Shown here: positions 22,746-26,160 of the stretch, in pieces | How the letters are laid out: every line of letters begins with the position of its first letter | Position numbering within the stretch: the first letter of the stretch is position 1 | Origin: Micromonospora siamensis | Lineage (GTDB): Bacteria; Actinomycetota; Actinomycetes; Mycobacteriales; Micromonosporaceae | Length of the DNA stretch: 64,000 bases | NCBI RefSeq assembly: GCF_900090305.1 | Contig: NZ_LT607751.1 | Span: 2,232,001-2,296,000 of the forward strand | Direction of reading: 5' to 3' | Translations under genes and position numbers: made by a program | Notes under the pieces: generated by a model | The model's database searches: none | What the model saw: only the letters and a program-made list of their open reading frames with translations | What the model was told of the DNA's origin: nothing

Positions 22746-23813
22746 TCAGTGGGCGCGGGTGTACTGGTTGGGCCAGGTGGGGGTGGCGGTCAGCTTGGCG
22801 GCGGCGCGGTTGGGCCAGTAGGGGTCGCGCAGCAGTTCGCGGCCGAGCAGGACCAGGTCGGCCTCCCCGGCGGCGACGATCTGCTCCGCCTGCTCCGGCT
22901 CGACGATCAGCCCGACCGCACCGGTCAGCACCCCCGCCTCCCGGCGGATCCGGGCGGCGAGCGGCACCTGGTAGCCGGGGCCGACCGGGACGGTCGCCGT
23001 GGCCGCGGCGCCGCCGGACGAGGTGTCGACCAGGTCGACGCCGGCCGCGGCGAGTTCCCCGGCCAGCACCACGCTGTCCTCGACGGTCCAGCCGCCCTCG
23101 ACCCAGTCGGTGGCGGAGATCCGGGTCAGCACCGGCACGTCCTCCCCGACGGCCGCCCGGACGGCGCGGGCCACCTCCAGGGTGAGCCGCATCCGCCCGG
23201 CCCGGTCGCCGCCGTAGCCGTCGCCACGGTGGTTGGTCAGCGGTGACAGGAACTCGTGCAGCAGGTAGCCGTGCGCGGCGTGGATCTCCACGGCGGCGAA
23301 GCCGGCGTCCAGCGCCCGGCTGGCGGCGGTGGCGAACGCGGCCACCACGGCGGCGATGCCGCGCTCGTCCAGCGCGGTGGGCCGCCGGTAGTCGGGCACG
23401 AACGGCTCGGTGCCCGGACCGACCGGGGTCCAGCCGCCCTCGGTGTCGGCCACCCCGCCGCGCTGCGCGTCCCAGGGGCGGTGGGTGGAGGCCTTGAAAC
23501 CGGCGTGGGCCAGCTGCACGGCCGGCACCGCGCCGTGCTCGGCGAGGAAGCGGGTGATCGGCCGCCAGGCGTCGACGTGCGCGCCGGACCAGAGGCCGGT
23601 GTCCTGCGGGCTGATCCGGCCCTCGGGCACCACGGCGGTCGCCTCGGTGACGATCAGACCGACCCCGCCGACGGCCCGGGAGCCGAGGTGGACGCGGTGC
23701 CAGTCGGTGGGCAGGCCGTCGGGACCGGCGCTGTACTGGCACATCGGGGCCATGGCGACCCGGTTGGGCAGGGTGACACCGCGCAGGGTGAGCGGGGAGA
23801 ACAGGGCACTCAT
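22746..23813 (-). CDS. Old Yellow Enzyme family NADH:flavin oxidoreductase (YqjM type)
   Basis: An FMN-dependent ene-reductase of about 355 residues. The FMN region begins LTLRGVTLPNRVAMAPMCQY; the catalytic pair lies in FAAVEIHAAHGYLLHEFLSP; the barrel continues with SPLTNHRGDGYGGDR and VLTRISATDWVEGGWT. The segment VGLIVEPEQAEQIVAAGEAD followed by LVLLGRELLRDPYWP closes the barrel. Cys in PMCQY fits the YqjM-like class, where it tunes the flavin. The ATG at 23813 is preceded by GGAGGATC; the longer open frame up to 24005 is not needed. It stands alone and its natural substrate is unknown. Confidence 0.95.
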   Translation of the reverse strand: MSALFSPLTLRGVTLPNRVAMAPMCQYSAGPDGLPTDWHRVHLGSRAVGGVGLIVTEATAVVPEGRISPQDTGLWSGAHVDAWRPITRFLAEHGAVPAVQLAHAGFKASTHRPWDAQRGGVADTEGGWTPVGPGTEPFVPDYRRPTALDERGIAAVVAAFATAASRALDAGFAAVEIHAAHGYLLHEFLSPLTNHRGDGYGGDRAGRMRLTLEVARAVRAAVGEDVPVLTRISATDWVEGGWTVEDSVVLAGELAAAGVDLVDTSSGGAAATATVPVGPGYQVPLAARIRREAGVLTGAVGLIVEPEQAEQIVAAGEADLVLLGRELLRDPYWPNRAAAKLTATPTWPNQYTRAH

Positions 23814-24008: not shown

Positions 24009-25313
24009 TCAGGCGGGGACCGGCTCCAGCCGCTCCGCCGGGCGGTCCGCCGGGTCCGGCTCGATCAGGTCGCGCTTGCCGGCCGTGTCGTACGCGGCCC
24101 GGTCCAGGGTGCCCTCCCGGGCGGCGACGATGGTCGGCACCAGCGCCTGCCCGGCGACGTTGGTCGCGGTGCGGATCATGTCGAGGATCGGGTCGATGGC
24201 CAGCAGCAGGCCGGCGCCGGCCAGCGGCAGGCCCAGCGTGCTCAGGGTCAGGGTCAGCATCACCAGCGCGCCGGTCAGGCCGGCGGTCGCCGCGGAGCCG
24301 ACCACCGAGACGAAGGCGATCAGCAGGTAGTCGCCGACGCCCAGCTGGACGCCGAAGACCTGCGCCACGAAGATCGCCGCCAGCGCCGGGTAGATCGCGG
24401 CGCAGCCGTCCATCTTCGTGGTGGCGCCGAACGGCACGGCGAAGGAGGCGTACTCGCGGGGGACGCCGAGCCGCTCGACGGAACGCTGGGTCACCGGCAT
24501 GGTGCCCACCGAGGAGCGGGAGACGAAGGCCAGCTCGATGGCGGGCCAGGCGCCGGCGTAGAAGCGCAGCGGGTTGAGCCGGCCGGCGGCCAGCAGCACC
24601 ACCGGGTAGACGACGAGCAGCACGATCGCGCAGCCGACGTAGACGGCGGTGGTGAACTTGGCGAGCGGGGCCAGCAGGTCCCAGCCGTACGAGGCGACGG
24701 CGTTCCCGATCAGACCCAGCGTGCCGATCGGGGCGAGCCGGATCACCCACCACAGCGCCTTCTGCACGATGGCCAGCACCGAGCGGTTCAGGGTGACGAA
24801 CGGCTCGGCGGCCTCGCCGATCAGCAGCGCGGCGGCGCCGACCACCAGGGCCAGGAAGACGATCTGGAGCACGTTGTTGTCGACGAACGCGCCGACCGGG
24901 TTGGTCGGGACGATCCCGGTGAGGAAGTCGGTCCACGAGCCGGTCTTGGTGGGCGCCTCGGCGCCGGCCACGTTCAGGCTGACCCCGCGGCCCGGGTCGA
25001 CCAGCAGGCCGAGGCCGATGCCGACGGTCACCGCGATCAGCGCGGTGATGCCGAACCAGAGCAGCGTCCTGACCGCCAGCCGGGCGGCGTTGGCGACGCC
25101 GCGCAGGCTGACCACGCTGACCACGATGGCGGTGAAGACCAGGGGCGGGACGGCCAGCTTGAGCAGCTGGACGAAGAGTCCGCCGACCGTGTCGAGGGTG
25201 GTGGTGAGCCAGCTCAGGTCGTTGGCCCGGGCAACGAAGCCGAGGGCCACGCCGAGCACGAGGCCGAGGAGGATCTGAACGGAGAAGGGGATCTTGCGCA
25301 GGGCGGAAGCCAT
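24009..25313 (-). CDS. SLC1/DAACS-family symporter (dicarboxylate, amino acid or cystine type)
   Basis: A 434-residue secondary transporter with about eight transmembrane segments and two hairpins. HP1 contains VSRSSVGTMPVTQRSVERLG, where the family has a serine-rich SSSAGT-like tip. The TM7 motif reads PFGATTKMDG, matching P-x-GAT-x-NMDG except that Lys replaces the usual Asn before MDG. Then come AAIYPALAAIFVAQ and, in TM8, DPILDMIRTATNVAGQ, where the family has D-x-x-x-T-x-x-N-V. Members import glutamate, C4-dicarboxylates, serine or cystine with H+ or Na+. The leader peptide ending 38 bases upstream suggests a sulfur-amino-acid link, so cystine (TcyP-like) is possible. Confidence 0.9.
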   Translation of the reverse strand: MASALRKIPFSVQILLGLVLGVALGFVARANDLSWLTTTLDTVGGLFVQLLKLAVPPLVFTAIVVSVVSLRGVANAARLAVRTLLWFGITALIAVTVGIGLGLLVDPGRGVSLNVAGAEAPTKTGSWTDFLTGIVPTNPVGAFVDNNVLQIVFLALVVGAAALLIGEAAEPFVTLNRSVLAIVQKALWWVIRLAPIGTLGLIGNAVASYGWDLLAPLAKFTTAVYVGCAIVLLVVYPVVLLAAGRLNPLRFYAGAWPAIELAFVSRSSVGTMPVTQRSVERLGVPREYASFAVPFGATTKMDGCAAIYPALAAIFVAQVFGVQLGVGDYLLIAFVSVVGSAATAGLTGALVMLTLTLSTLGLPLAGAGLLLAIDPILDMIRTATNVAGQALVPTIVAAREGTLDRAAYDTAGKRDLIEPDPADRPAERLEPVPA

Positions 25314-25351
25314 GGGACGTCCAAGGTCGGGAGGGCGGAACGGGGGCAGCG

Positions 25352-25441
25352 TCAGGAGAGTGGCTGCGCCGGACAGACGCCGCTGGCCTGCAGTCGGAGG
25401 TCGACATACAGGCGCACGGTCAGGTCCCAGACGTTGGTCAT
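25352..25441 (-). CDS. Putative cysteine-responsive leader peptide
   Basis: A 29-codon frame from the ATG at 25441 encodes MTNVWDLTVRLYVDLRLQAS then GVCPAQPLS. The R-x-Y/H-V-D-L core followed by a small-residue stretch and a single Cys resembles the short actinobacterial leader peptides found before cysteine and sulfur metabolism genes, where the ribosome is thought to sense cysteinyl-tRNA. It ends 38 bases before the symporter ATG on the same strand. No clear terminator/antiterminator pair was seen in those 38 bases, so control could be translational. Only the peptide sequence and position support it. Confidence 0.6.
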   Translation of the reverse strand: MTNVWDLTVRLYVDLRLQASGVCPAQPLS

Positions 25442-25502
25442 CGCCTGCCGACGGTACTCCCGGCCGGTCCGCAGGTGGAAGGAGCGGTGCCCGTGACGCT
25501 CC

Positions 25503-26160
25503 TTACACGTGCTGTTTGTCGGCCGGTGACCCGTTCGTCACGTCCGGGGCGGAGCGGGCCCGTCCGAGCGCCGTCGCGGTGCCCAGGCCCCAGGCCGCGC
25601 CGACCGCCAGCAGCAGCCGCTCCAGCCCGCCCAGCAGGCTGCCCCGGCCCACCGTCACCAGCCCGACGGCGATCGCCCCGGCCACCGGCAGCGCCACCGC
25701 CACCGCCAGCCGGGCCACCCGCCGCAGCCCGGGCGCCGCGTGCGGGGAAAGCGCGATCACCAGCATCGCGAAGACCGTCGACGCCATCGCCACGATGCTC
25801 GCCCCGCCGTGCACCAGGTCCGCCACGGTCGACGACTCGAACGGCGGCAGCGGGCAGCCGGCGCTGCACGTCACCGCCCCCGACAGCACCGTGAAGACCG
25901 CGCCGGCGCCGAGCAGCCCGGCCGCGACCGGCAACGCCGGGGGCAGCGCCGCGGCGAGCAGCAGCAACGACGCGGCCAAGGCGAACACCCCGATCCGGTA
26001 CGTCGAGGCGTACCTGCTGCTGGCGATGCCCGCCTCGCTGACGTACCCGGTCAGGCCAGCGCCCGTGCCGGCGACCACGGCGAACGTGACCGCGACCGTG
26101 CCGGCCAGCACGCAGCAGGCGGCGACCGACGCGGCGGCGACCCGGGCCACGGTGCCCCGC

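Follow-up and report, generated by a model that had tools for sequence, protein, structure and literature searches.

Leaderless short ORFs with polycysteine stretches have reportedly been described in mycobacteria by Canestrari et al. in 2020. The leader described here resembles these mycobacterial polycysteine ORFs in being a short ORF with a Cys codon in an upstream position, and it is probably leaderless as well; unlike them, it carries one Cys codon and no contiguous run, has a conserved core and precedes an SLC1 target. According to passages of three reports, leaderless ORFs with Cys codons control downstream genes in M. smegmatis via cysteine-dependent attenuation (PMC9031893, PMC13236596, PMC9094748). 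Actinobacterial cys operons are likewise preceded by Cys leader peptides without obvious terminators, as outlined in part of Seliverstov et al. 2005 (PMC1262725), where the leaders contain runs of Cys codons and the portion concerned mentions no SLC1-type transporter, whereas the present leader combines a single Cys codon with an SLC1 gene. Eight leader peptides are recorded for S. lividans, none of them before an SLC1 gene in the relevant excerpt of the report (PMC8079986). A further described system is the NCBIfam family NF042934 ("putative leader peptide"; cis_reg_atten), whose members share with the present leader an R-x-x-V-D-L core and a Cys before the stop, and are located mainly upstream of sulfur genes. 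The core of the present leader is distinct, reading RLYVDLRLQASG-C-P with only one UGU, and the Micromonosporaceae SLC1 forms fall below the curated cut-off of this model.

The leader is located on the minus strand of a 64,000-nucleotide stretch of Micromonospora siamensis DNA, the whole of which is referred to here as the window. The preliminary description had reported a 29-codon frame with one Cys near its end, followed after 38 nucleotides by a co-oriented SLC1 (SDF) symporter gene, and this arrangement was confirmed from the sequence. The features of the locus are as follows:

25352..25441, minus strand: leader peptide ORF of 29 codons with an ATG start and a TGA stop, encoding MTNVWDLTVRLYVDLRLQASGVCPAQPLS
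25373..25375, minus strand: TGT, codon 23, the sole Cys codon of the window leader, from sequence and conservation
25314..25351, minus strand: C-rich spacer of 38 nt between the leader stop and the symporter ATG, without a TTTT run
25320..25324, minus strand: weak SD-like TTGGA of the symporter, from sequence and alignment
24009..25313, minus strand: SLC1/SDF symporter gene (PF00375), 434 aa, with the TcyP-type motifs SRSS and GCAAIYPA
22746..23813, minus strand: OYE/NamA-like flavin oxidoreductase, the next gene after the symporter (PF00724, scanned from 23993; start placed by eye, MSALF)
25451..25456, minus strand: -10-like TACCGT, 9 nt 5′ of the leader ATG, suggesting a leaderless start
25475..25480, minus strand: putative -35-like TTCCAC at 18-nt spacing, from reading of the sequence
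25479..25504, minus strand: palindrome AAGGAGCG...CGCTCCTT over the -35 region, a possible operator, from the sequence and related sites in relatives

When scored against NF042934, the window leader reaches 11.8 bits, below the curated cut-off of 27. The Micromonospora leader form with LTERLYVDLRRQASGVCPA reaches 24.5 bits, a sulfatase leader (VELTRLFTARLHVDLRRQASALCPRAPRA) 32.9 bits and the Streptoalloteichus SLC1 leader MDTGWLLTERLHVDLRRQASAICPV 35.0 bits, and because intermediates up to 35 bits thus bridge the gap, the window leader can be tied to this family. Seven SLC1 leaders from outside the Micromonosporaceae score between 20.5 and 35.0 bits and the Micromonosporaceae SLC1 forms between 11.5 and 24.5 bits; four of the nine SLC1 leaders scanned beside that of the window, and five of the ten leaders scored in total, exceed the cut-off. 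Weak matches to the NCBIfam leader families Ms4527A and Ms5788A were also obtained when the leaders were scanned. By these scores the window leader is a divergent relative of the NF042934 class, a type of cysteine attenuator already known. Leaders of the form VELTRLFTARLHVDLRRQAS[SA]LCPR are found before a sulfatase-type gene in a different genus of the Micromonosporaceae (L079-L081; Pfam PF00884 in L079).

Matches to NF042934 at E <= 0.01 are present in 81/98 genomes sampled from the class and exceed the cut-off in 68. The targets of the class were surveyed at 91 high-scoring loci, of which 84 gave both a leader and a downstream gene and seven lacked a leader by the pattern used; these are the best-scoring matches and not a random sample, and one match was skipped, its contig ending before any gene. 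By their Pfam domains, the genes downstream of the 84 class leaders encode rhodaneses (24), DUF4395 proteins (14), sulfite/nitrite reductases (13), PLP enzymes (6), luciferase-like proteins (5), PAPS reductases (4), SBP_bac_5 (3) and NMT1 (3) proteins, an APS kinase (1), a TauD protein (1) and others. By our reading, the six PLP enzymes are of the cysteine-synthase type, and 49/84 of the downstream genes belong to plain sulfur-pathway types (rhodanese, sulfite reductase, PLP, PAPS reductase, APS kinase, TauD). The DUF4395 genes (those at L162, L165 and L167 among them) are probably sulfur-linked. In the genome of the window itself, two leaders exceed the cut-off; one stands before the gene for a rhodanese-type sulfurtransferase, the other before that for an amino-acid ABC binding protein. 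The earlier claim that similar leaders precede sulfur- and cysteine-related genes in actinobacteria is thus borne out both by the 84 class loci and by this genome.

We consider it likely that the ORF is a cysteine-responsive, cis-acting attenuator of the SLC1 symporter, probably leaderless, in which a shortage of Cys-tRNA leads to a pause at UGU codon 23 and to translation of the symporter. We infer that the leader is translated and that, when Cys-tRNA is low, the ribosome would pause at the one invariant UGU while making a conserved peptide (L-x-x-R-L-Y-V-D-L). Base pairing between the leader RNA and the weak symporter SD would be blocked by the paused ribosome, with any queue behind it, and the freed SD would permit translation of the symporter, which is probably an importer of the cystine or cysteine type. 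With cysteine plentiful, ribosomes would run off the leader and symporter levels would stay low. The 11.8 bits on NF042934 and the presence of one Cys codon, not a run, count against this reading.

The geometry of the leader was compared across 68 distinct Micromonosporaceae leaders, derived from 89 leader loci after seven without a TGGA element or a start by rule were dropped; gene and leader starts in all censuses are rule-based choices, and one alignment of this family took in 67/68 of the leaders, leaving out L049. A TANCGT element lies at -15 in 61/68 of these leaders, and an SD-like 5-mer within the 18 nt 5′ of the leader ATG is found in 0/68, suggesting that the mRNA starts at or beside the leader ATG and that it is probably leaderless in the Micromonosporaceae. 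In a second set of 46 leaders (L103-L161, of which only L105 is from Micromonospora), TAnnnT occurs at -16 to -12 in 20/46, so that by this test the leaderless geometry is not general; an SD-like 5-mer is present in 2/46 of this set, for which the start choices are our own.

The palindrome over the -35 region consists of AAGGA...TCCTT with an embedded TGTAA-N6-TCAC, and a loose form of this pattern matches 49/68 relatives. In the same-genus locus L041, GGGGAG...CTCCCC is found in its place, altered on both sides, and since both arms have changed, a transcription-factor site may be superimposed on the leader. As a regulon site the palindrome was rejected: GTAAGGANNNTCAC occurs exactly once in its own genome, with 19 further sites at one mismatch against 11 for a reversed-pattern control.

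Two elements within the leader were considered as parts of an RNA switch:

25386..25413, minus strand: predicted RNA hairpin within the RLYVDLRLQA codons (leader nt 29-56), with 96.9% of cells paired
25427..25437, minus strand: 5′ arm (leader nt 5-15), with predicted partial complementarity to the region of the symporter SD

The hairpin shows no two-sided changes in the alignment. Codon 16 (25394..25396, minus strand), seven codons before Cys codon 23, lies within it and is CGA in 65/68 leaders; CGA serves 13/336 Arg residues in the genes of the window. Pairing is possible between leader nt 5-15 and the conserved CCAGAC..TTGG that immediately precedes the symporter start, and the outer half of this pairing is complete (6/6, G-U counted) in 47/68 leaders vs 3.1 expected from composition shuffles. 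In 37/68 leaders, the SD region pairs best with the leader 5′ end, and the Cys-Pro codons (TGTCCGG) were accordingly rejected as the only arm sequestering the SD (TTGGACA). Among the remaining 31 leaders, the best-pairing segment holds the whole Cys codon in 26, which include the leader of the window; here the Cys-codon region pairs with the SD better than the 5′ arm does (-16.4 vs -15.0 kcal/mol), and 12/100 shuffles pair with the SD as well as the 5′ arm. Support for the 5′ arm is therefore weaker in the sequence of the window than across the 68 leaders, which slightly lowers confidence in the proposed mechanism. The proposed structure has 93.4% of cells paired, compared to 19-39% when slid, and the value is still 93.2% when partners are shuffled among sequences; in the alignment of the 68 leaders, the proposed helices have 0 pairs altered on both sides and no compensatory changes, so that support from covariation is absent. 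Mean SD accessibility across the 68 leaders in partition-function models is 0.27 free, 0.27 stalled and 0.27 with a queue, an imposed queue raising accessibility in 23/68 and lowering it in 19/68, while the window's own values are 0.26, 0.26 and 0.38, respectively. The trend is similar in a subset of 40 distinct sequences defined by a narrower leader pattern. Release of the SD by a stalled ribosome, by a queue or by a ribosome at the start or stop was rejected as an RNA model, there being no gain in mean SD accessibility; as ribosome masking gave no such gain, we infer the RNA switch rather than derive it from the folding models. No Rfam family reaches its gathering threshold within the window, and when 28 leaders with long spacers, mostly from Streptomyces, were folded to a consensus, no clear terminator or SD helix emerged.

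A real cysteine attenuator that acts through transcription termination, with Rho loading at the C-rich spacer, and not through freeing of the SD, is a less probable account that nevertheless merits attention. The spacers of the 68 Micromonosporaceae relatives contain 47% C and 20% G, and runs of four T are rare in them (4/68, and 1/46 in the set L103-L161), making an ordinary intrinsic (U-tract) terminator unlikely; together with the SD-release models, which gave no switch, and the suggestion of Rho for mycobacterial cys leaders in part of Seliverstov et al. 2005 (PMC1262725), this composition speaks for Rho. A length of 34-52 nt, as determined at the 24 same-genus loci where the symporter start was found, is, however, short for a rut site, and the enrichment of the SD-complementary motif fits translational control.

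The symporter is assigned to the SLC1/SDF family by its PF00375 score (350 bits, E 2.2e-104, cut-off 27.9). The distribution of leaders over this family was determined in a 98-genome sample of the class, in which PF00375 genes occur at 50 places in 33 genomes; 49 loci were read and 48 genes retained, two of the 50 places (fragments) being left out and L323 being a duplicate of L281. L321 provided only 39 nt of upstream sequence, and L305 (HP1 motif TRSS, GltP-like) was grouped with the other SLC1 genes. A leader precedes 15/19 genes of the window's SLC1 clade, its own gene included, and none is detectable before the other 4/19; among the 29 other SLC1 genes, 0/28 with scannable upstream sequence have a leader (Fisher p 5e-9, uncorrected for relatedness). 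The second SLC1 gene of the window's genome, which is DctA-like (L308), likewise has no leader upstream. The leaders of the clade include the Streptomyces-type MKTAVRLRHAASIPLVARLHVDLCRCMSAVCCREV and the Micromonospora-like MVNIWGLTQRLHVDLRRQASSACRG. Furthermore, of the best 80 symporter loci in named genomes, which are not a random sample, 66 have a leader by regular expression and L124 has one by its peptide and NF042934 score, while 13 have no detectable leader. The link between SLC1 genes and leaders is thus general and clade-specific.

The symporter shares 33.7% amino acid identity with E. coli TcyP, 33.4% with GltP, 28.5% with SstT and 27.0% with DctA, and given the first two values whole-protein identity cannot tell TcyP from GltP. 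In the alignment, its HP1 motif (FVSRSS) corresponds to FTSRSS in TcyP, YSTASS in GltP, LGTSSS in DctA and FFTRSS in SstT, and its TM7 motif (MDGCAAIYPA) to QNGCAGLYPA in TcyP and LDG-STLYQS in GltP. At these positions, the best-matching relative with a solved structure, an aspartate transporter, carries FSTCSS and MDGTALYQG and lacks both TcyP-like motifs. The symporter shares with E. coli TcyP, annotated as a cystine/sulfocysteine:cation symporter, the SLC1 family, HP1 SRSS and TM7 GCAxxYPA, and differs from it in overall identity and in the weak tree join. The two motifs were chosen once the alignment had been viewed and derive from a single TcyP; they do not constitute an established test of the family. 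In the tree, from which L321-L323 and four of the eight named loci were left out, the clade of 24 is recovered at 100/99 and is joined to E. coli TcyP at 94/35, a join flagged as long-branch. The interpretation in the preliminary description, in which ribosome stalling at the Cys codon would control cystine uptake, is supported in part: leaders go with one clade bearing TcyP-like motifs, whereas identity does not decide the matter and the connection of the clade to TcyP in the tree is weak. The SLC1 target, seen there as extending this class of control, is not a one-off and recurs in many genera.

Based on the TcyP-like motifs and the company the leader keeps, our best guess for the substrate is cystine or cysteine. 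It is rather unlikely that the symporter instead carries aspartate, glutamate or C4-dicarboxylates and that the Cys codon serves another role or one in general starvation. In favour of an acidic substrate, the NCBIfam matches of the symporter are to dicarboxylate, glutamate and serine transporter models, all below cut-off and with the DctA and GltP models best; the best-matching relative with a solved structure is named as an aspartate transporter; GltP and TcyP are equally identical to the symporter; and a conserved Arg, presumably at the position of R397 in GltPh numbering, is also compatible with acidic amino acids. The SRSS and GCAxxYPA motifs are, however, common to the symporter and TcyP and absent in GltP, DctA and the aspartate transporter (SstT having TRSS), and the leaders are confined to the window's clade in the 48-gene sample.

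Codon 23 is TGT in 68/68 distinct Micromonosporaceae leaders, and codon 6, where it specifies Cys, is TGC in 11/11 of them. The Cys codons of 21 Micromonosporaceae symporter genes comprise 0 TGT and 44 TGC, and those of eight window genes 1 TGT and 21 TGC, indicating that codon 23 is held fixed against the bias of the genome. The 46 leaders of the set L103-L161 contain 82 TGT and 66 TGC codons, and two adjacent Cys residues (CC) occur in some leaders from other Micromonosporaceae genera. The core Arg, Asp and Leu are constant in 80 class leaders while third bases vary, with Arg encoded by CGG, CGC, CGT, CGA and AGG, Asp by GAC (63) and GAT (17), and Leu by five codons; as these leaders were chosen by the class model, the conservation is partly imposed. 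Among 41 distinct SLC1 leaders, found via the symporter at 59 loci and derived mostly from Streptomyces relatives with one from Micromonospora, Leu -3, Leu +1 and Arg +7, which lie outside the search motif, are 98-100% conserved with some synonymous variation; the Micromonosporaceae form has R-L or R-R at +6/+7 instead of C-R. It is plausible from these patterns that selection acts on the nascent peptide, and such selection would account for the sufficiency of one Cys codon. That the ORF itself is not regulatory, its conservation reflecting a promoter, an operator, mRNA signals or an independent small protein, is by comparison very unlikely: non-coding conservation upstream is strong, with a palindrome at the -35, and the predicted hairpin overlaps leader codons, but the peptide is conserved with varying third bases in the model-selected class leaders, and the same type of peptide precedes many unrelated sulfur genes.

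Symporter matches at E <= 1e-50 were found in 34/61 genomes, 30 of these being among the 37 same-genus genomes (own included), of which 7/37 have no such match. The leader lies upstream of the symporter in 30/30 same-genus loci fetched, and so is not a chance ORF; the head and core of its peptide are nearly invariant, while the tail beyond Cys-Pro varies in length and sequence. Querying 200 genomes of the family with the leader matched 45, in 6/44 genera, and the symporter is present at 35/37 of the further leader loci obtained (L042-L078), being absent in L049 and L068; the three matches from a sixth genus (L079-L081) are those preceding a sulfatase-type gene. At the phylum level, the leader query matched just 2/396 genomes, and wider homologues were therefore sought via the symporter. 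A motif scan of 294 non-overlapping 435-nt tiles covering both strands of the window gave two loose matches, one of them also strict, the strict match being the leader before the symporter; no match was obtained in 940 antisense tiles from 80 related loci. Short ORFs are common in high-GC DNA, but the conservation in 30/30 same-genus loci, the invariant TGT and the tile-scan controls leave a chance origin with practically no likelihood.

The OYE/NamA-like gene is found near the symporter in 33/37 same-genus loci (L012-L048) and in 18 of the best 80 named loci, all 18 being from Micromonospora or Plantactinospora. In the same-genus loci L049 (leader at 1501-1590) and L068 (1501-1578), an OYE-type oxidoreductase gene follows the leader and the symporter was not found; by our reading, L049 retains a remnant of the symporter start.

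Among the open-licence PMC papers listed, no title or abstract opening describes an SLC1 or TcyP gene as the target of such leaders, and this SLC1 clade appears, from the sequences compared, to be a widespread and apparently unreported target of leaders of the cysteine-attenuator type. We tentatively raise the possibility that the class consists of arrest peptides and not of plain codon counters, the conserved chain L-x-x-R-x-x-V/I-D-L-x-R sensitising the ribosome and one UGU sensing cysteine, with the clade of SLC1 cystine importers a standard member of a ribosome-run sulfur regulon across actinobacteria. Because the NCBIfam matches of the symporter all lie below cut-off, the leader supplies it with a testable substrate, cystine, and the single conserved Cys codon makes the question of codon or peptide directly testable. 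The leaders would link one clade of SLC1 transporters to control by cysteine across many genera of actinobacteria, and would extend to uptake a regulon whose known role lies mainly in biosynthesis.
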